Part shown: positions 9,566 through 62,801 of the stretch, one piece after another | How positions within the stretch are numbered: the stretch's first letter is position 1 | How the letters are laid out: each line of letters begins with the position of its first letter | From: Streptococcus pyogenes | GTDB lineage: Bacteria > Bacillota > Bacilli > Lactobacillales > Streptococcaceae | Direction of reading: 5' to 3' | DNA length: 64,000 nucleotides | NCBI RefSeq assembly: GCF_002055535.1 | Contig: NZ_LN831034.1 | Coordinates: forward strand, 310,001-374,000 | Notes under the pieces: model-generated | The model's input: the letters and a program-made list of their open reading frames with translations, nothing else | What the model was told of the DNA's origin: nothing | Database searches by the model: none | Program-made: the position numbers and the translations under genes

Positions 9566-9571
9566 AGAAGT

Positions 9572-9690
9572 GTCTTCAGGGCAGGGTGTGATTCCCGACC
9601 GGCGGTGACTAGTAACTAGAAGTCCGCGAGCGCAAGCTGATGTGGTGTAACTCCACAACCGACAGTATAGTCTGGATGAGAGAAGACCGG
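9572..9690 (+). promoter_or_regulatory. FMN riboswitch (RFN element)
   Basis: The conserved RFN core is readable: TCTTCAGGGCAGGGTG near 9573, CCCGACCGGCGGTGA (9594-9608), AAGTCCGCGAGCG (9620-9632), TGATGTGG and CCGACAGTATAGTCTGGATG (9659-9678), closed by GAGAGAAGA. It binds flavin mononucleotide and lowers expression of the riboflavin transporter that follows. The 3' part (9697-9721) can form a TGTGTAG/CTACACA stem and may belong to the expression platform. Confidence 0.95.
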
Positions 9691-9769
9691 GCTTTTTGTG
9701 TAGGCTTATTTTAGCTACACAATAACGACGGAACTTCTTTCAATTTGAAAAAATTGGAGGAATTTTTTA

Positions 9770-16969: not shown

Positions 16970-17967
16970 TTATTTTGTTTTTGCCATTAAGTAAAGAAAA
17001 TAAGGGGCTCCGATAAGCGACACTAAAATCCCTGTCTGGATATTACTGCCAACCAGATAGACTCGTCCTACTGTATCTGCAACAAGAAGTAGGATCATTC
17101 CGATTAAAATACTAATGGGTATTGTTATTTTATGATTACTCCCTACCAAGTATGTACTAAAGTGTCCAGCTATTAAGCCGATAAAACTAATATTACCAAC
17201 CAAAAGAACACTCAAAGCACCTAAGCCAGCTGCTAAGACAAGTATCAAACGACGCTTACGGTTTAAAGGGAGTCCTAGCCCAATAGCAGTATTATCAGCT
17301 AATCCCATAATATTAAGGAAATGGGCTTGACTATAAGTCAATAGCCAAAAACACAATAACAAAGGAGCGATGACACTCAGAGTAGGCCAGTCGTCTCCTA
17401 TTAATTGGCCGCTAAGCCAATTGATGACCAAATCGACTTTGTAGCGATTAATATGACCAACAAGAGCAACCATTAGACTTGAAAGCATGGTAGTAACAGC
17501 TACACCAGTAAGAATTAACCGTGTAGGATCAATTTGTCCTTGTTTTGTCAAAGATAGCCAATAAACGCTAAAGGTTGTTACAATAGCACCAAGCATGGCA
17601 AATAAAGGCAAGTAATGGCTGATATGAGCTTGCTCAAAGAAAGAAAAGGAGACCACAATAGCCAAAGAGATACCTGCTCCTATAGTAATACCTAATACAC
17701 CAGAGTCAGCTAAGGGATTTCGTGTTAAACGTTGTAATAATAGCCCTGATAAAGCAAGAGAACCGCCTCCTAGACAAGCAGCTAGAATTCTTGGCAGACG
17801 AATGTTAATAACGATGAAAGATATGGCATGGCTAGATTTTCCCAAAAACACATGGACAAGGTCCAAAAAAGATAGATGAGATTCTCCAAGGGACAAAGCT
17901 AATCCCATAAGACTTACAAGTAGCAGGATCAGGCTAGTATATAACCTTAAAAGGTGTCTTTGAGATT

Positions 17968-17971
<4 letters not shown>
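16970..17971 (-). CDS. fhuG: Ferrichrome ABC transporter permease FhuG
   Basis: A 333-residue FecCD-family permease with about nine to ten membrane helices. The family segments LPRILAACLGGGSLALSGLLLQ, RNPLADSGVLGI and FIGLIAGH are present. With FhuB it forms the ferric hydroxamate channel driven by the ATPase. I set the start at the TTG at 17971. It overlaps the fhuB stop as TTGA and has a perfect AGGAGG 6 nt upstream, inside the end of fhuB. An ATG at 18007 gives 345 residues but lacks that ribosome binding site. Confidence 0.88.
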
Positions 17972-20750
<2,779 letters not shown>

Positions 20751-39444: not shown

Positions 39445-39573
39445 TAACAAAGCGCAAAGAGACAACAAATCATCCCTTTTAACAGTCTGACCTTTCTTTG
39501 AGATTGAGCTGGCAGATGATCATTTCTTAACAAAAGTTAAAGAGTTGAGCAAAGTAAGGAACAGACATAAAGA

Positions 39574-39608
39574 CCATAAAAGCAAGCCAGTTTGGCTTGC
39601 TTTTATGG
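39574..39608 (+). terminator. Terminator after scpC
   Basis: Perfect 16-bp inverted repeat CCATAAAAGCAAGCCA / TGGCTTGCTTTTATGG with a 3-nt loop. Confidence 0.85.
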
Positions 39609-40112
39609 TGTTATTGTCGTGTGCTACGATGACTAAAAAAGAACAACGAACAATGACCTCGAATCACCAAAAGGACTTGATTTGATAGCTTCCCTATGCT
39701 ATACTAAGCCTATTCTTTCAAGAAGGACTCCTTTTGTGGAAAAGACTGAAAAAAAGGACACTAATCTATCCAAAAACTCCAGATGAGTAGCTGCAAACGA
39801 TGCCTTTGCTGTGATCAAGGTGGTAAAGCAGACTGACTTGTCACTATCTGAGCAGGTGTCAAAAAAAGAAGCTTTGGCTTTGTCATTCAACATACTGAGC
39901 TTCAGTCTTTCAGAACGGAGACACCCCCAGTTTTGTACTCAAAAAGCATAAACAGCTCTGCTGATGTGACATCTGATTTCTACGTGCGCAGTGAGCCAAA
40001 ACAGCTGCTGTTTGCTATGGAAAAAGTGGCGCCAATCGAGATTTTTGAGACCCTAGGCTCAAAAATAAGGCATAGAATTCCAAAGGAAGTCGCTGCCGTG
40101 AGCACAACCTAA
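39609..40112 (+). pseudogene. Gene remnant(s) between scpC and the DUF1275 gene
   Basis: About 500 nt with broken reading frames. The clearest piece is open from 39852 to the TAA at 40110-40112, with no good start, and includes VLYSKSINSSADVTSDFYVR and LLFAMEKVAPIEIFETLGSK. Other frames carry short open stretches such as FAVIKVVKQTDLSLSEQVSK upstream. This pattern looks like a decayed coding region. I do not recognise the family. Confidence 0.4.
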
Positions 40113-40214
40113 GAAAAACTATCCCAAAAGACTTTTTCTGCAATTTGAAATACTGAATTTCAGTATTTTTTCTTTTGTAACTAAGAGCAATGAATGAGGT
40201 AAAAAAAGGCAACA

Positions 40215-41164: not shown

Positions 41165-43162
41165 ATGAAAAAACCATTTTACATTACGACACCCATTTAT
41201 TACCCATCTGGGAAATTACACATTGGTTCTGCCTATACAACTATTGCTTGTGATGTCTTGGCACGCTACAAGCGCCTGATGGGCCATGAGGTCTTTTACC
41301 TCACAGGACTAGATGAACACGGACAAAAGATTCAAACCAAGGCAAAAGAAGCTGGTATTACACCTCAAACCTACGTTGATAACATGGCAAAGGATGTCAA
41401 AGCCCTTTGGCAATTGCTAGATATTTCCTATGACACATTTATCCGGACAACGGACGATTACCACGAAGAGGTCGTTGCTGCTGTCTTTGAAAAATTGCTG
41501 GCGCAAGATGACATTTACCTTGGCGAATACTCTGGTTGGTATTCTGTCTCTGATGAGGAATTTTTCACTGAAAGCCAATTAAAAGAAGTCTTTAGAGATG
41601 AAGACGGTCAGGTTATTGGAGGGATTGCCCCATCAGGTCATGAGGTCGAGTGGGTCTCTGAAGAATCCTACTTCCTACGCCTTAGCAAATACGATGATCG
41701 TCTTGTGGCCTTCTTTAAAGAGCGACCTGACTTTATCCAACCAGATGGTCGTATGAATGAAATGGTGAAAAACTTTATCGAGCCAGGCCTAGAAGATTTG
41801 GCTGTTAGCCGTACTACCTTTACATGGGGTGTACCTGTTCCATCAGACCCAAAACACGTGGTTTATGTCTGGATCGATGCCCTCTTAAACTACGCGACAG
41901 CTCTTGGTTATCGTCAAGCTAATCACGCTAACTTTGATAAGTTTTGGAATGGAACGGTTTTCCACATGGTTGGAAAAGATATCTTGCGTTTTCATAGCAT
42001 CTACTGGCCAATTTTACTCATGATGCTTGATTTACCAATGCCAGACCGCTTAATTGCCCATGGTTGGTTTGTCATGAAAGACGGTAAAATGTCTAAATCA
42101 AAAGGCAATGTGGTCTATCCAGAAATGTTAGTTGAGCGCTTTGGACTTGATCCTCTTCGTTATTACCTCATGCGTTCTTTGCCAGTTGGTTCAGACGGGA
42201 CCTTTACCCCTGAAGATTATGTGGGTCGTATCAACTATGAGTTAGCCAACGACCTTGGCAATTTATTGAACCGTACCGTTGCCATGATCAACAAGTATTT
42301 TGACGGCACGGTGCCAGCTTATGTTGACAATGGAACTGCCTTTGATGCTGACTTAAGTCAACTGATTGATGCTCAGCTAGCAGACTACCATAAGCACATG
42401 GAAGCGGTGGACTACCCACGCGCCTTGGAGGCTGTTTGGACCATCATCGCTCGTACCAACAAATACATCGATGAAACCGCTCCTTGGGTGCTCGCTAAAG
42501 AAGATGGTGACAAAGCTCAACTAGCCAGTGTCATGGCACACTTAGCAGCCAGCTTGCGTCTGGTCGCTCATGTGATCCAACCCTTTATGATGGAAACATC
42601 AGCTGCTATCATGGCCCAGCTTGGTTTGGAACCTGTTTCTGATTTGTCAACACTTGCTCTAGCAGATTTTCCTGCCAATACAAAGGTTGTTGCCAAAGGG
42701 ACACCGATTTTCCCACGTCTTGACATGGAAGCTGAGATTGACTACATCAAAGCCCAAATGGGTGACAGCTCAGCTATTTCCCAAGAAAAAGAATGGGTCC
42801 CTGAAGAGGTTGCGCTCAAATCTGAAAAAGACGTCATCACATTTGAAACCTTTGATGCTGTGGAAATCCGTGTGGCAGAAGTCAAGGAAGTGTCAAAAGT
42901 GGAAGGTTCAGAAAAATTGCTGCGCTTTAGAGTAGATGCAGGAGACGGGCAAGACCGTCAAATCTTGTCAGGTATTGCCAAATTTTACCCCAACGAACAA
43001 GAATTAGTGGGTAAAAAACTACAAATTGTTGCTAACCTGAAACCGCGTAAAATGATGAAAAAATACATCAGTCAAGGGATGATTCTATCAGCAGAGCATG
43101 GAGATCAGCTAACGGTCTTAACCGTTGATTCCTCTGTTCCAAATGGAAGTATCATTGGCTGA
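41165..43162 (+). CDS. metG: Methionyl-tRNA synthetase
   Basis: A 665-residue class I synthetase. The HIGH motif appears as KLHIGSAYT (about 16-24) and KMSKS as [11 protein letters not shown] (about 306-316). An anticodon-binding domain follows. A C-terminal EMAP/Arc1p-like OB domain (about 560-665; [20 protein letters not shown]) aids dimerisation and tRNA binding. ATG at 41162 and 41165 are both available. I use 41165 with GAAAGGAAA upstream. Confidence 0.97.
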
Positions 43163-43180
43163 TGCTGACCTATTATTCAA

Positions 43181-43215
43181 AAAACCTAAGCAAGAACATG
43201 TGCTTAGGTTTTTTT
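43181..43215 (+). terminator. Terminator after metG
   Basis: Perfect 12-bp stem AAAACCTAAGCA / TGCTTAGGTTTT with a T run. Confidence 0.9.
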
Positions 43216-43333
43216 GATTGCCTTCAAGAAAGACGAATAACGAGATGGGTGATATGACATCAAAAGCATAACTATCCTAGGACCTGTCCTAGTAAGATTG
43301 CTGTGCTTTTGACAAGTGAACAGAGAGGTCTTA

Positions 43334-43387
43334 AAACTATATCTTGTCATAAAAAAGATTGCAAAACACTATATCTTGTGTTATTAT
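43334..43387 (+). promoter_or_regulatory. nrdF promoter with tandem NrdR boxes
   Basis: Box 1 (43334-43349, AAACTATATCTTGTCA) and box 2 (43366-43381, ACACTATATCTTGTGT) are 32 bp apart, three helical turns. Box 2 matches the NrdR consensus ACACWATATCTWGTGT exactly and lies in the spacer between -35 TTGCAA (43359-43364) and -10 TATTAT (43382-43387). NrdR would repress when dATP is high. Confidence 0.9.
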
Positions 43388-43656
43388 GGTTTTTATAAAA
43401 GTTAAGCATACTTAACTTTAGCCAAACAAAAGAGGACACTAGAGCGTGTCCCACAAGACAGTTGAGCCCTTCGCTTTTTTAGTAGAGTAGGAGTGCTCAA
43501 GTCAAAAAGAGACATCCCATCAAACCATTGCTGTTTAGCAGGTCTTTTTGTGTTGCTCAAAAAAACAATTCCTGTCTGTTTGGCGTCTAGTGATGACTTA
43601 GGCTTAGCGCTACTAGACTTTTGTTTGAAAAATACCTCAAGCCTTGAAGGAGACAA
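43388..43656 (+). other. Structured, gene-free 5' leader of nrdF
   Basis: About 260 nt lie between the -10 and the nrdF ATG, with no supported gene. Several hairpins are readable: AAGTTAAG/CTTAACTT (43399-43418), GGACAC/GTGTCC (43434-43451) and TTGAGC/GCTCAA (about 43462-43501). A role as regulatory RNA is possible but not identified. Confidence 0.45.
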
Positions 43657-44670
43657 ATGACCCAACATTATTATGAACGTTCGCAATCCCCAATTGAATA
43701 CGCCCTATCTGAAACACAAAAACAGTTGCGCTCCATCAATTGGAATTACCTTAATGATGACAAAGATTTAGAAGTGTGGAACCGTGTCACTCAAAATTTT
43801 TGGTTGCCTGAAAAGGTTCCTGTTTCTAATGATTTAAATTCTTGGCGCTCCTTGGGTGAGGATTGGCAACAGCTCATCACAAGGACCTACACTGGGTTGA
43901 CCTTACTAGATACAGTACAAGCAACGGTTGGTGATGTGGCACAAATTCAGCATTCACAAACCGACCACGAACAAGTCATCTATACGAACTTTGCCTTTAT
44001 GGTGGGGATTCATGCCCGCTCTTACGGGACGATTTTTTCGACCCTTTGCAGCAGCGAGCAAATCGAAGAAGCACATGAATGGGTGGTCTCAACACAGAGC
44101 TTGCAAGACCGTGCCCGTGTCTTGATTCCTTACTATACGGGTGATGACCCTTTGAAATCAAAAGTAGCAGCAGCTATGATGCCAGGATTTTTGCTGTATG
44201 GCGGCTTTTACCTTCCTTTTTACCTATCAGCACGTGGTAAAATGCCAAACACATCTGATATCATCCGCCTGATTTTACGCGACAAAGTTATTCACAACTA
44301 TTACAGCGGTTACAAATACCAACAAAAAGTAGCACGTCTTAGCCCAGAAAAACAGGCTGAAATGAAGGCCTTTGTCTTTGACTTGCTCTATGAACTCATC
44401 GACCTTGAAAAAGCTTACTTGAGAGAACTGTATGCAGGCTTTGATTTGGCAGAAGATGCTATCCGTTTTAGCCTTTATAACGCTGGAAAATTCCTTCAAA
44501 ATTTAGGCTATGAGTCGCCCTTCACAGATGAAGAAACGCGCGTTTCACCAGAAGTATTTGCTCAGCTATCAGCGCGTGCAGACGAAAACCATGACTTTTT
44601 CTCAGGCAATGGCTCATCTTATGTGATGGGGATCACCGAAGAAACCACAGATGACGATTGGGAGTTTTAA
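43657..44670 (+). CDS. nrdF: Class Ie (metal-free, DOPA-type) ribonucleotide reductase small subunit NrdF
   Basis: A 337-residue ferritin-fold R2 subunit. Aligned by eye to class Ib NrdF, three of four carboxylate metal ligands are changed: the Glu of FMEAVHARSY is V116 (FMVGIHARSY), the Glu of FLESFLFY is P176 (MMPGFLLY), and the Glu of IIRDEAVH is K210 (ILRDKVIH). D85, H119, H213 and Y123 remain. V, P and K at these positions define the class Ie 'VPK' NrdF2 group, whose members carry a metal-independent DOPA radical on the tyrosine. It is the first gene of nrdF-nrdI-nrdE. GGAG precedes the ATG. Confidence 0.93.
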   Translation: MTQHYYERSQSPIEYALSETQKQLRSINWNYLNDDKDLEVWNRVTQNFWLPEKVPVSNDLNSWRSLGEDWQQLITRTYTGLTLLDTVQATVGDVAQIQHSQTDHEQVIYTNFAFMVGIHARSYGTIFSTLCSSEQIEEAHEWVVSTQSLQDRARVLIPYYTGDDPLKSKVAAAMMPGFLLYGGFYLPFYLSARGKMPNTSDIIRLILRDKVIHNYYSGYKYQQKVARLSPEKQAEMKAFVFDLLYELIDLEKAYLRELYAGFDLAEDAIRFSLYNAGKFLQNLGYESPFTDEETRVSPEVFAQLSARADENHDFFSGNGSSYVMGITEETTDDDWEF

Positions 44671-44673
44671 GAA

Positions 44674-45162
44674 ATGGCAGAGCTGATTATTGTGTATTTT
44701 TCATCTAAGTCCAATAACACCCATCGCTTCGTCCAAAAATTAGGCCTGCCTGCTCAGCGCATACCAGTAGATAATAGGCCACTTGAAGTTTCCACCCATT
44801 ACCTTTTGATTGTGCCTACCTATGCAGCTGGTGGCTCAGATGCCAAAGGAGCCGTTTCTAAACAAGTGATTCGTTTTTTGAATAATCCTAACAATCGTAA
44901 ACATTGTAAGGGAGTGATTTCTTCTGGAAATACCAATTTTGGCGATACCTTTGCCTTAGCAGGCCCTATCATTTCTCAAAAATTGCAGGTCCCCTTATTA
45001 CACCAATTTGAACTATTAGGCACTGCTACAGATGTCAAAAAGGTACAGGCGATTTTTGCCCGCTTAAAGCATCACACACACGACAAGCAAAAACAAACCA
45101 ACAACCTGATTACAGAAAGGACACACCCATGTCACAAACCAATGCGTCATACCTCTCATTAA
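44674..45162 (+). CDS. nrdI: Flavodoxin-like NrdI
   Basis: A 162-residue FMN-binding protein with [13 protein letters not shown] (phosphate loop, about 8-20), VPTYAAGG and [16 protein letters not shown] (about 87-102). NrdI generates superoxide that activates NrdF. For class Ie it is required to oxidise the radical tyrosine to DOPA. It lies 3 nt after nrdF. The basic, low-complexity C-terminal tail overlaps nrdE by 34 nt and may be the price of that overlap. Confidence 0.94.
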
Positions 45163-47309
45163 ATGCACTGACCCGTTTTAAAAAACCAGACGGCAGCTAC
45201 CATTTTGATAGCGATAAAGAAGCTGTTAGGCGCTACCTGGAAGAACATGTCTCTCCCAATCAAATGGCTTTTAACTCACTAGAAGATAAGCTAGCTTACC
45301 TCATCAATGAAGGGTATTATGAGCAGGCCATTTTTGATGCCTATCCTAATGACCTTATCAAGGAGGCCTTTCATTATGCCTATCAACAAGGCTATCGCTT
45401 TTTAAATCTCATGGGCGCTATGAAATTTTACCAGTCCTATGCCTTAAAAACCTTGGACGGTAAGCAGTATCTAGAAACATTTGAAGACCGTGCTGTGATG
45501 AATGCACTCTTTTTAGCTGATGGAGATCAAACCTTTGTCTTTGACGTGATTGATGCCATCTTGCACCGACGCTTTCAACCAGCTACCCCAACGTTTTTAA
45601 ATGCCGGAAAAAAACGCCGTGGCGAATACATTTCGTGCTATCTTCTTCGTGTCGAAGACAATATGGAATCTATCTCTCGCGCCATTAGCACCAGCTTGCA
45701 ACTCTCAAAAAGAGGAGGCGGAGTCGCCTTGTGCCTCACCAACCTCAGAGAAATCGGAGCACCGATAAAAGGGATTGAAAATCAGGCAACAGGCATCGTT
45801 CCTGTCATGAAACTACTAGAGGACTCTTTTTCCTATGCCAATCAACTAGGTCAGCGCCAAGGAGCAGGTGCGGTTTACCTTCATGCCCATCACCCTGAGG
45901 TTTTGACCTTTTTAGACACCAAACGTGAAAATGCCGATGAGAAAATTCGCATTAAGTCCCTAGCATTGGGACTTGTGATCCCAGATATTACCTTCCAGTT
46001 AGCCAAAGAAAACAAAGACATGGCACTCTTTTCACCCTATGATATCAAGCGTGCCTATGGCAAGGACATGTCAGACATCTCCATCACAGAGGAATACGAT
46101 AAACTGCTAGCCAATCCAGCCATCAAAAAGACCTACATCAGTGCTAGAAAGTTCTTTCAGTTAATTGCAGAGCTACATTTTGAGTCAGGCTACCCTTACC
46201 TCTTGTTTGATGACACGGTCAATAAGCGCAACCCTCATGCCAAAAAAGGCAGAATCGTCATGTCTAACCTGTGTTCTGAAATCGCTCAAGTTAGCACCCC
46301 AAGCACTTTCAAAGAAGATTTGAGTTTTGAAACCATTGGAGAGGATATCTGCTGTAATTTAGGGTCTATCAATATTGCCCAGGCTATGGCAGATGCGCCA
46401 CACTTTGAACAGCTCATCACAACGAGCATCAGAGCACTTGATCGTGTCTCTAGAGTGTCTGACCTGAATTGTGCGCCTTCTGTTGAGACAGGCAATGCAG
46501 CCAACCATGCAGTAGGATTAGGCGCCATGAACCTACATGGTTTTTTGGCAACCAACCACATCTACTATGATACAAAAGAAGCCGTTGACTTTACAGATCT
46601 GTTTTTCCATGCCATGGCCTATTATGCTTTTAAAGCCTCTTGCCAATTAGCCAAAGAAAAAGGCGCTTTTGCAGGATTTTCGTTATCAACCTATTCAGAT
46701 GGCACTTATTTTGCCAAGTATTTGCAAGAAGATGCCAAGCCACAAACAGCCAAGGTTGCCACATTGTTGCAAGATTACGGCTTCACGTTGCCAACGGTGG
46801 CGGATTGGCAAGCCCTAGTAGCAGATATCAAGCAGTTTGGCCTAGCCAATGCGCACTTGCTAGCGGTTGCTCCGACAGGCTCCATCAGCTACTTATCATC
46901 CTGCACTCCGAGTCTACAACCAGTCGTTGCTCCTGTTGAGGTCCGAAAAGAAGGTAGCCTGGGCAGGATTTACGTCCCTGCCTATCAGATTGACCAGGCT
47001 AACTATGCTTACTATGAACGTGGTGCCTATGAGGTCGGCCCAAAAGCCATCATCGACGTTGTAGCTGCTGCCCAAAAACACGTTGACCAAGCCATCTCAT
47101 TGACCCTGTTTATGACCGATCAAGCGACCACACGTGACCTGAACCGCTCCTATATCCAAGCTTTTAAGCAAAATTGTGCATCGATCTATTATGTGCGAGT
47201 GAGGCAAGACGTCCTAGCAGGCAGCGAACAGTATGACGAGGATAGTCTTGTGACAGCTCCTGGAGCTAGTGATGAGACCACCACAGAGTGTCAAAGCTGT
47301 ATGATCTAA
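45129..47309 (+). CDS. nrdE: Ribonucleotide reductase class I large subunit NrdE
   Basis: A 726-residue catalytic R1 subunit. It lacks the N-terminal ATP cone, as usual for NrdE. Visible segments: [29 protein letters not shown] and [10 protein letters not shown] (active-site Cys and Asn region), [13 protein letters not shown], and the C-terminal redox pair in TTECQSCMI. It reduces NDPs to dNDPs using the radical from NrdF. Its ribosome binding site (GAAAGGA) lies inside nrdI. No NrdH gene is here. Confidence 0.95.
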
Positions 47310-47513: not shown

Positions 47514-48266
47514 TCACAAACTGCCCTTGAAATACGCTTCTATGTGGAGCTTTTTTTGGTCCTGTGACACGTAAGCTCCAACGACCTCCAGCTGACAGCC
47601 TCTTGGAAACAAGAGCTCAACCTCTGAAGGCACAGCCGAATAAGGCTCGACAAAGGCTGCCTTGGCCCCTTTTTTGACACAGATGCGCACCTCCACCGGT
47701 CGATGGGTCATGGCGCCGTTTTTCAAGGCTGTCGTGCTCATAAAACTGTGCTTGGTGTAGCGTGTACCAAGCTTGATCTTACAAAGGATATGAGGGTCAA
47801 ACTGATGGTTACGGTAGTAAGACGTGAGATCAGCATGTGAAACACCGATATCACGCAAAAACGTCTCGTATACATAGCGGTATACTACAATGTTCCACGG
47901 GATGACTAGCCGGTGAGTCGCAGCATCGAGCTGGGCCACCTGATCCCTTAGCTCAGGCGTGAGTTGGCTGAGCTCACCTTTGGCTTTGTCTAGGCTGGTG
48001 TTGATAGGGCCTGCCTGCTGACAGGTATAAGCAGCCATCGCCTCTTGCTCAGCCCTTGGGTAGATGAGACCCTTGCCCCATCGCTTTTTAATCAGTGTCT
48101 CAGCGCCCTTTTGATCCGAAAAGGTAAAATAAGCAGGCGTCCCCTCACAAACCGCCCGCTCATAGTGCTCACAGACAAAAAGCTCGACCAAGCCCTCAGT
48201 TTGCCAGATCAGACTAAAACAGCTAAGAAGAAGGACAATAGCCAGTTGATAGCGCTTTTTTAGCAT
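47514..48266 (-). CDS. spyA: Mono-ADP-ribosyltransferase SpyA
   Basis: A 250-residue C3-like toxin, secreted or surface-associated. It has an N-terminal signal helix (about 8-24), a conserved Arg (VIPWNIVVYRYVY), the Ser-Thr motif as SFMSTTAL, and the bi-glutamate ExE motif as PSEVELLF (E215 and E217 of the precursor). SpyA modifies host cytoskeletal proteins such as vimentin and actin. I set the start at ATG 48266, with AGGGGGA just upstream. The GTG at 48281 is less likely. A 35-codon frame overlaps this start. Confidence 0.95.
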   Translation of the reverse strand: MLKKRYQLAIVLLLSCFSLIWQTEGLVELFVCEHYERAVCEGTPAYFTFSDQKGAETLIKKRWGKGLIYPRAEQEAMAAYTCQQAGPINTSLDKAKGELSQLTPELRDQVAQLDAATHRLVIPWNIVVYRYVYETFLRDIGVSHADLTSYYRNHQFDPHILCKIKLGTRYTKHSFMSTTALKNGAMTHRPVEVRICVKKGAKAAFVEPYSAVPSEVELLFPRGCQLEVVGAYVSQDQKKLHIEAYFKGSL

Positions 48267-48367
48267 AGTTCCCCCTGACACCAGCCCAAAAGGCTGACCC
48301 TTCCCCTAGACCTTTTGGCTAGCTCTTGACACCACCAGTTTCTCAGACAGGCTAATCTTTTTGTCAT
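48260..48367 (-). CDS. Possible 35-codon leader peptide overlapping spyA
   Basis: On the minus strand, TTAGGGAGAAAGAG precedes an ATG at 48367 that opens MTKRLACLRNWWCQELAKRS and on for 35 codons. It stops at a TAA (48262-48260) that overlaps the spyA start as ATGCTAA. The message between can fold (AGCCAAAAGG with CCTTTTGGGCT). This could couple or attenuate spyA translation. There is no homology evidence, so confidence is low. Confidence 0.3.
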   Translation of the reverse strand: MTKRLACLRNWWCQELAKRSRGRVSLLGWCQGELC

Positions 48368-61075: not shown

Positions 61076-61723
61076 TTAAAGGGCTGTGACATAAAGTTGC
61101 TTAGCAATATTTTCAGGGATGACAAGTTCCTTGTCGCCATAACAAATCGTATAGGTTTTTGCAAAGGTATCAATTTGAGTTAAGGTTAGCTCGGTATTGA
61201 TATTGAGGTGATGTGCTTCTAGATACTGGATTAAATCAAAGTGGTCGTGGATTCTGCTTAGACGAAACCGTCCCAACTCCGTGATGGTGTTGAGAGTTGT
61301 AGTGTTCATTTCGACAAGAGGCTGACCATAGCGAGGAATAGTCCCTCCGTGTGGGCAGAAATCTGGAAAATCAAGGATCTTGTCTAAACGGTCGATAAAG
61401 GAGTCTGAGACAGTGTGCTCTAAGACTTCAGCTTCTTGGTGCACTTCTTGGGTATTATAGCCCAGCTGATGAATCAAAAATACCTCAATCAAGCGGTGTT
61501 TGCGGTAGAGGTTAGCAACAAGAGCATAGCCTTTGTCTTTTAGCAAATAGCCTTTTGCTTTATCTTTGACAATCCAGCCTTGTGAAATCATTTTTTTAAT
61601 CATCTCTGAAACGGCAGGTGCCGAAACGTGCATCTTTTCTGCAACCATTTTATTTGTAATCTTGGGTTCTTGTTCTCCAATTTCATAAATACATTTCAAG
61701 TAATCTTCTTTATTAGGCGTCAT
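61076..61723 (-). CDS. mtsR: Metalloregulator MtsR (DtxR family)
   Basis: A 215-residue DtxR/MntR-type repressor: N-terminal winged helix (TPNKEDYLKCIYEIG, VSAPAVSEMIKKM, about 2-65), dimer and metal domain (HQEAEVLEHTVSD, with His and Glu ligands; FCPHGG) and a C-terminal FeoA/SH3-like domain. With Mn or Fe it represses mtsABC and other metal genes in GAS. It is transcribed divergently from mtsA, 145 nt apart. Confidence 0.95.
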   Translation of the reverse strand: MTPNKEDYLKCIYEIGEQEPKITNKMVAEKMHVSAPAVSEMIKKMISQGWIVKDKAKGYLLKDKGYALVANLYRKHRLIEVFLIHQLGYNTQEVHQEAEVLEHTVSDSFIDRLDKILDFPDFCPHGGTIPRYGQPLVEMNTTTLNTITELGRFRLSRIHDHFDLIQYLEAHHLNINTELTLTQIDTFAKTYTICYGDKELVIPENIAKQLYVTAL

Positions 61724-61782: not shown

Positions 61783-61837
61783 TTGACAAAAAGCCTAAAA
61801 GAGGATATCCTTATAGCATAATTAACTAAACTTAATT
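61783..61837 (+). promoter_or_regulatory. mtsABC promoter and MtsR operator
   Basis: -35 TTGACA (61783-61788) with a 17-bp spacer to TATCCT (61806-61811). The AATTAACTAAACTTAATT inverted repeat (61820-61837) just downstream is of the SloR/ScaR/MtsR type, an AATTAA/TTAATT dyad. Metal-loaded MtsR bound there would block transcription. Confidence 0.75.
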
Positions 61838-61868
61838 AAATAAATAATATATCCTAAGGAGAGAAATG

Positions 61869-62801
61869 ATGGGAAAGAGAATGAGCCTCATTTTGGGTGC
61901 TTTTTTATCTGTTTTTCTTTTAGTAGCTTGTTCGTCAACTGGCACTAAAACTGCTAAGAGTGATAAATTAAAAGTCGTGGCAACCAATTCAATTATTGCC
62001 GACATGACAAAAGCTATTGCTGGTGATAAAATCGATCTGCACAGCATTGTGCCAATCGGTCAAGACCCTCATGAGTACGAACCATTACCAGAAGATGTTG
62101 AAAAAACAAGTAATGCTGATGTGATTTTCTATAATGGTATCAATCTAGAAGATGGCGGGCAAGCTTGGTTCACCAAACTAGTGAAAAATGCTCAAAAAAC
62201 GAAAAACAAAGATTACTTTGCCGTGTCTGATGGCATTGATGTGATTTACTTGGAAGGTGCAAGCGAAAAAGGAAAAGAAGATCCACATGCTTGGTTAAAT
62301 CTCGAAAACGGAATCATTTATTCAAAAAACATTGCCAAACAATTGATTGCAAAGGATCCTAAAAACAAAGAAACTTATGAAAAGAACCTAAAAGCTTATG
62401 TGGCTAAATTGGAAAAACTAGACAAAGAAGCCAAATCAAAATTTGATGCTATTGCAGAAAATAAAAAATTGATTGTGACTAGTGAAGGCTGCTTCAAGTA
62501 CTTTTCAAAAGCTTACGGTGTCCCATCTGCTTATATCTGGGAAATTAACACCGAAGAAGAAGGAACACCAGATCAAATTTCATCATTGATTGAAAAACTA
62601 AAAGTCATCAAGCCATCTGCGCTTTTTGTAGAGTCAAGTGTCGATAGACGCCCTATGGAAACTGTTTCTAAAGATAGTGGTATTCCTATTTATTCTGAGA
62701 TCTTTACAGATTCAATTGCTAAAAAAGGTAAACCTGGCGATAGTTATTATGCTATGATGAAATGGAACCTTGACAAAATTTCTGAAGGTCTAGCAAAATA
62801 A
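61869..62801 (+). CDS. mtsA: Metal-binding lipoprotein MtsA
   Basis: A 310-residue cluster-IX (PsaA/LraI) substrate-binding lipoprotein with lipobox LVAC (about 17-20). Metal ligands are visible: the His in GQDPHEYEP (about 62-70), the His in [11 protein letters not shown], a Glu in SEGCFKYFS and an Asp in EIFTDS. It binds Mn, Fe and Zn and feeds the MtsBC transporter. AAGGAG at 61856-61861 favours the ATG at 61869 over 61866. Confidence 0.96.

Follow-up and report, generated by a model that had tools for sequence, protein, structure and literature searches.

Ribonucleotide reductases of class Ie have been described in two variants, and the residue triad V-P-K (VPK) is the signature of one of them; Streptococcus pyogenes is one of three organisms with a described R2 subunit of this kind (R2e VPK), and the gene order nrdF-nrdI-nrdE is found in virtually all VPK genomes, of which 128 are counted in GTDB (PMC11846895). 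The class Ie beta proteins of S. pyogenes, Aerococcus urinae and Mesoplasma florum, when co-expressed with NrdI, were active at less than 0.2 equivalents of metal and carried a radical on dihydroxyphenylalanine (DOPA); the same source credits the first report of the S. pyogenes case to Roca et al. 2008 and states that higher intracellular Fe and Mn repress the S. pyogenes enzyme (PMC8463856). Here we analyzed 64,000 nucleotides of the S. pyogenes genome (contig NZ_LN831034.1, positions 310,001 to 374,000; hereafter the window, whose numbering is used unless another sequence is named), which contain the operon nrdF-nrdI-nrdE at 43657-47309. We found that the operon almost certainly encodes the VPK enzyme, reported to be a metal-free DOPA-radical enzyme, and that its mRNA leader very likely contains a conserved two-hairpin structure, which is shared with a small RNA (sRNA) of the same genome.

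The class Ie operon

The following features of the operon were assigned:

43657..44670 (+): nrdF (nrdF.2), class Ie R2 subunit of the VPK type, 337 amino acids (translation, alignment, family match, tree)
43909..43911 (+): D85 codon, retained ligand position (residue read by script, codon position computed from the start of the open reading frame, ORF)
44002..44004 (+): V116 codon, Glu in class Ib (script and alignment)
44011..44013 (+): H119 codon, retained (script)
44023..44025 (+): Y123 codon, expected DOPA site (script and alignment with a solved structure; DOPA itself from the literature)
44182..44184 (+): P176 codon, Glu in class Ib (script and alignment)
44284..44286 (+): K210 codon, Glu in class Ib (script and alignment)
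44293..44295 (+): H213 codon, retained (script)
44674..45162 (+): nrdI, flavodoxin-like activase, 162 amino acids (closest among solved structures to the NrdI chains of 7mmr, the nearest, 7mmp and 6ebq)
45129..47309 (+): nrdE (nrdE.2), catalytic R1 subunit, 726 amino acids, C-terminal CQSCMI (family and PDB match)

An earlier note, made from the sequence alone, had read V116, P176 and K210 in place of Glu with D85, H119, Y123 and H213 kept, and had assigned the protein to class Ie on this signature. The script returned the same residues, and in the alignment made here NrdF.2 shows no Glu at the three ligand sites, its metal-ligand positions reading D-V-H-P-K-H where class Ib has D-E-H-E-E-H. 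At the seven site columns the window protein shares D-V-H-Y-P-K-H with all ten of the other streptococcal VPK loci compared (L009-L018), which have open frames and 84-96% identity. The second NrdF of the genome (C1:1178744-1179679, 39% identity, Glu at all three sites) shows D-E-H-Y-E-E-H, as do all 19 of the further class Ib loci compared from streptococci (L019-L037). Since the substitutions are conserved across a group, they are not chance changes. When the triads were read in 85 NrdF ORFs (loci L058-L140), drawn from the 80 top-ranking relatives found with a VPK profile and from three additional loci, 64 were EEE, 12 QSK and nine VPK, and no other triad was present in this set, the composition of which means that rarer triads may exist.

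A phmmer comparison with the PDB gave the highest scores for 6gp2 (644 bits), 9r5l (642 bits) and 7mmr/7mmp/6ebo (615-617 bits), followed by 8rag and 8rah (417 bits), 1kgn (401 bits), 3n37 (375 bits) and other class Ib-like entries. We take 8rag to be a QSK protein and 6ebo to come from Aerococcus urinae. The alignment with 6gp2 is gap-free over residues 3 to 337, and V, P and K occupy the three sites in 6gp2 too. Entry 8bt4, identical in sequence to 6gp2, is described as R2e VPK (PMC11846895), while 6ebo is classed as Ie and 3n3a, identical to 3n37, as Ib (PMC8463856). The R2e entries 6gp2/6gp3/8bt3/8bt4 (Mesoplasma florum) and 6ebo/7mmp-7mmw (Aerococcus urinae) have the triad and match from end to end, and differ in coming from other organisms (Mesoplasma for 8bt4 according to PMC11846895).

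In a 51-row tree the VPK proteins formed one group (100/100), which joined QSK at 100/100, beside bifidobacterial class Ib. The rows comprised VPK and QSK proteins, every third EEE protein of the 85-ORF set, four streptococcal class Ib proteins, the window protein and four further streptococcal VPK proteins; the tree was rooted at the midpoint only, QSK (with three long rows) was not one group and needs two changes. The streptococcal class Ib rows sit on a far branch, so that nrdF.2 most likely does not derive from the class Ib gene of the same organism. The class Ie QSK proteins of Gardnerella and Bifidobacterium likewise have the three Glu replaced and D, H, Y and H retained, but carry Q and S for V and P, lie on other tree branches and differ in gene orders (PMC11846895). 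In Bifidobacterium mellis a single locus (L077) encodes NrdF proteins of both types, QSK and EEE, with about 4 kb between them. VPK NrdF was present in 15 of 284 Streptococcus genomes and in five of 395 genomes sampled from the order, three of the five being streptococci already counted.

The gene order claimed in the earlier note was confirmed, with the NCBIfam families TIGR00333 and TIGR04170 above cut-off, and the operon is intact. NrdI matches its solved relatives over residues 5-129 of 162, NrdE matches 1pem over residues 3-700 of 726, and the start of nrdE overlaps nrdI by 34 nt. Elsewhere in the genome there are a second NrdE, NrdR, NrdD and a second NrdI-like gene (70.7 bits, just under the family cut-off of 74.65). 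The genome has three ribonucleotide reductases: class Ie, class Ib (EEE NrdEF) and class III (NrdD).

The ligand residues, phylogenetic group, operon, paralogues and operator-like sequences were observed directly in this analysis. Against class Ie stand the NCBIfam/TIGRFAM names of NrdF, which say class 1b because no listed family is named Ie; beyond these names, no evidence against class Ie was found in this analysis. Because the three Glu ligands are gone, NrdF would be unable to hold a normal di-metal site. By analogy with relatives described in the literature, NrdI, a reduced flavoprotein, would supply an oxidant from O2; Tyr123 would be hydroxylated to DOPA and then oxidised, and the DOPA radical would start the radical chain to the catalytic Cys of NrdE. 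Such an NrdI-dependent enzyme would be a second aerobic, metal-independent one beside class Ib and class III, presumably used when Fe and Mn are limiting. A protein that binds one metal ion, either for catalysis or transiently for making DOPA, is an unlikely alternative, to which the retention of D85, H119 and H213 lends some weight, as does the description of the mechanism of DOPA formation as unknown (PMC11846895). That NrdF.2 is a non-functional class Ib remnant stripped of its ligands is very improbable: three of the six ligands are missing and a class Ib enzyme with the full set is encoded in the same genome, but the ten other loci keep the same residues in open frames, the operon is intact and the S. 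pyogenes protein is reported active (PMC8463856).

The class Ie enzyme is already known and in print for S. pyogenes, and the lead of the earlier note is a known case. Compared through published descriptions, the window locus has the triad, operon order and regulators of S. pyogenes NrdF.2, and no difference was found (PMC8463856, PMC11846895, PMC6593403, PMC2518855). Its meaning as a metal-free route to DNA precursors while the host withholds iron and manganese is likewise in print for this organism.

A probable conserved leader RNA ahead of nrdF

The segment between the promoter region and nrdF contains the following elements:

43434..43451 (+): leader helix P1 (GGACAC/GTGTCC), from fold and pairing tests
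43452..43461 (+): leader linker CACAAGACAG (consensus NAYAANRCAG), from conservation and fold
43462..43500 (+): leader helix P2 (TTGAGC/GCTCAA outer pairs), from fold and pairing tests
43528..43549 (+): weak hairpin with a U run behind it, possible attenuator (block conserved in other leaders; not reported by the terminator scan)
43585..43618 (+): second hairpin followed by TTTTGTTTG (similar hairpin in L010)

The module of hairpin P1, linker and hairpin P2 lies ahead of nrdF in 15 of 15 VPK-bearing Streptococcus genomes among the 284 (the window, L009-L018, L058 and L141-L143). The linker NAYAANRCAG occurs in all 15 leaders, with six of its ten positions invariant. The fold of 43394-43660 was more stable than those of shuffled sequences (z -3.0). 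When the window leader (z -2.4), the leader L142 (z -1.9) and the related sRNA described below (z -3.6) were folded by minimum free energy, all three showed P1, a mostly unpaired linker and P2, although three bases of the linker extend the pairing below P2 in the window leader.

The pairing tests indicated that the helices change in sequence while they keep their pairs. In alignment A3 (11 leaders) both sides of a pair were changed in 38 cells, compared to 18.6 in shuffles, with lower values for slid partners; in alignment A4 (15 leaders, 14 of them distinct) the values were 45 and 21.5. P2 carries most of the weight, with 79-81% of alignment cells paired. We also used a linker-anchored test, which takes only the position of the linker and from which the near copies L011, L017, L018 and L058 were dropped (11 leaders); the P1 score and the P2 score were each reached in 0 of 1000 shuffles, which keep base counts only. 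Finally, leader model R1, built on 11 leader rows, found the withheld leaders L142 (E 1.8e-5) and L143 (E 0.0024); L017 and L018, likewise absent from R1, are near copies of included rows.

Several observations weigh against the structure or against the way in which it was found. P1 had standard pairs in just 57-61% of alignment cells (A3, A4), partly because its register shifts between rows, and L143 scored 0 for P1 in the linker-anchored test. The best slid position (-30) scored 134, compared to 144 for P1 itself, as the hairpin of the palindrome occupies that position. Of the five measures, one was reached by 1 of 500 shuffles (A4), and by 3 of 500 in another run. There was selection as well: the linker was noticed by eye, the segment boundaries for A2 and A3 were set by eye, the linker pattern was widened after it had failed on L009, and leader model R2, used in the searches below, was built from the same 15 leaders that it detects. 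R2 detected the sRNA of genome G154 only in a filter-free scan of the locus and missed that of G159. The terminator scan of 43100-43700 was negative on the + strand. The less biased evidence consists of the withheld L142 and L143, the linker-anchored P1 and P2 scores, and the sRNA copies, which are in no model. Taken together, a conserved structure is very likely and a regulatory role of the leader RNA is probable.

Terminator-like hairpins follow the module in the leaders, with a score sum of 175 compared to 69.9 in base-count shuffles (reached in 0 of 200); in the window the highest score belongs to the hairpin at 43585-43618, and the one closest to the module is weak. Inspection by eye for an antiterminator pairing shared by the leaders found none. 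A leader peptide after the GGAG that precedes P1 was considered and rejected, as no start codon at a suitable distance was seen by eye in the leaders. None of the riboswitch families of Rfam scored above threshold on the leader. The NAD+-II riboswitch, considered because it is streptococcal (PMC7749635), had no Rfam match there, and three permissive Rfam rows on 43160-43700, naming the eukaryotic mir-7445 and SNORD66, were rejected as chance. In L141 and L142 an RNA hairpin CTGTT..AACAG was seen by eye ahead of P1.

The same module in a small RNA

With leader model R2 and strict filters, 16 of the 284 Streptococcus genomes matched: the genomes of the 15 model leaders and G067, whose one match (E 0.0023) is doubtful, about three chance matches being expected in 284 genomes at E 0.01. 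Five of the 395 genomes of the order matched; the two non-streptococcal matches fall within ORFs that by eye resemble ddl and thiD and were taken as chance, and all accepted carriers in the two sets belong to Streptococcus. In 19 further loci (eight streptococcal class Ib/NrdD/NrdI-like, eight VPK from outside the genus and three QSK, L061 having just 214 nt before nrdF), R2 gave two matches with E values of 1 or less. The stronger of them (E 0.1) spans 34 nt in Mycoplasma sp. (L065:5293-5326), about 0.7 kb before a VPK nrdF.

In five of the 15 VPK genomes R2 found a second copy of the module, and these copies are the Rfam family RF02643 (Spy491738), at 104-114 bits. The copy in the genome of the window is at C1:1831079-1831163 (L175:1530-1640, - strand). 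This sRNA has been reported as SR1754950, with Northern blot and 5' RACE (rapid amplification of cDNA ends) data (PMC2765633), and as sRNASpy491738 (PMC3542284). Like the nrd leaders it has P1, the linker (here AATAACACAG) and P2, but it differs in being free-standing, with its own strong terminator, and convergent in this genome with the gene read by eye as treR. RF02643 was above cut-off in six of the 284 Streptococcus genomes, all with VPK nrdF, and reached 80.8 bits in G159, which lacks VPK nrdF. The sRNA is thus present in 6/15 VPK genomes and 1/269 others, which is not an independent count because the carrier species are related. Conversely, RF02643 finds three nrd leaders (L150, 46.2 bits; L156, 45.5 bits; L153, 42.7 bits), all below its gathering cut-off of 91 bits, which excludes the leaders from the family as defined, and the window leader gave no match up to E 5. 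In six of seven genomes the sRNA lies in the nrdD region, about 1.1-2.5 kb from a gene read by eye as nrdG and past one read as yaaA; G124 differs. The accounts of the sRNA consulted in PMC2765633 and PMC3542284 draw no connection to nrd genes, and nrdF is absent from both main texts.

No report of the leader RNA, or of its tie to the sRNA, was found in the open-licence PMC literature searched. The leader module appears to be new, and the same module forms a verified sRNA in the same genome. We propose, with slightly less than even confidence, that P1, NAYAANRCAG, P2 and the terminator-like hairpin make up an undescribed regulatory leader RNA of streptococcal class Ie operons. The two-hairpin leader would control the operon after transcription start: the module may be an aptamer or a protein-binding element that responds to the metal, nucleotide or redox state and acts on nrdFIE by attenuation. 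SR1754950/Spy491738 may respond to the same signal or titrate the same factor, which would link the metal-free reductase to a second RNA.

Alternatively, the module could be merely a relic of common descent, or promoter-region DNA, with no role as RNA. The restriction of all accepted carriers to one genus would fit this explanation, as would the low pairing of P1 (in part an effect of register), the negative terminator scan and the fact that no transcript map of the nrd leader was met in the literature consulted. However, the helices vary in sequence yet preserve their pairing more than shuffled and slid controls do, much of the flanking leader sequence aligns poorly, and at another site in the genome this module occurs as a verified RNA (PMC2765633). 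We regard this alternative as improbable.

Promoter region, metal regulators and consequences

The leader is preceded by a cluster of operator-like sequences. The label "NrdR box" is given by resemblance to a consensus; this name and that of the MtsR operator are readings of predicted sites.

43334..43349 (+): NrdR-box-like sequence 1 (three mismatches to sequence 2, 32 bp apart)
43359..43387 (+): sigma-70-like promoter TTGCAA-17-TATTAT (consensus match only)
43366..43381 (+): NrdR-box-like sequence 2, ACACTATATCTTGTGT (within the -35/-10 spacer)
43384..43398 (+): Per-box-like sequence TTATGGTTTTTATAA (same 15 bases as the Per box printed for nrdF.2 in PMC2518855)
43398..43419 (no strand): palindrome AAAGTTAAGCATACTTAACTTT, candidate MtsR operator (sequence reading)
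16970-20750 (-): FecCD/Peripla_BP_2 ATP-binding cassette (ABC) system
61076..61723 (-): DtxR-family repressor, MtsR by its position beside mtsA; reported operon repressor (PMC6593403)
61866-63590 (+): metal ABC lipoprotein and ATPase, beside the DtxR-type repressor

The Per box TTATGGTTTTTATAA is described 257 nt upstream of nrdF.2, under PerR control (PMC2518855). MtsR represses nrdF.2IE.2 when iron is replete, and the genes of this operon were 246- to 1079-fold up in the vaginal tract (PMC6593403). We infer that MtsR would bind the palindrome, which lies 237 nt from the ATG. The boxes, promoter and palindrome are squeezed into 86 bp (43334-43419), a packing which implies that three repressors may compete for one promoter. 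Promoter-like matches numbered 3, compared to 1.5 in shuffles, and are not clearly above chance. The 16-mer ACACTATATCTTGTGT has one exact occurrence in its own genome and, at two mismatches, two places, one of them (1175885) ahead of the class Ib genes; at up to three mismatches there were 16 matches and 32 in the control, so that many of the weak matches are chance. Upstream of the VPK operons a box-like match (up to four mismatches) was found in 11 of 15 and a TTAAG-n-CTTAA palindrome in 9 of 15; in L141 and L142 the palindrome lies upstream, not downstream, of the box-like sequences.

The two metal-uptake systems that the earlier note had placed in the window are indeed there, as listed above. 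Rfam sRNA Spy490380c (61818-61913, +) overlaps the start of mtsA, and its expression row looks similar to that of Spy491738 (PMC3542284). Other RNA features of the window are the Rfam sRNAs SSRC8_1 (39445-39594, -) and SSRC8_2 (39890-40170, +) and a flavin mononucleotide (FMN) riboswitch (9568-9691, +) ahead of an ORF weakly similar to an energy-coupling factor (ECF) transporter permease. Adjoining the operon is an ORF (47514-48281, -) that by eye resembles a secreted ADP-ribosyltransferase.

If the leader RNA acts as proposed, the class Ie operon of S. pyogenes would have an RNA control layer after transcription start, atop the reported control by MtsR and PerR and perhaps that by NrdR. For the sRNA, which was reported in 2009 and 2012 and for which no role was met in the literature consulted, this would be a first clue to function.
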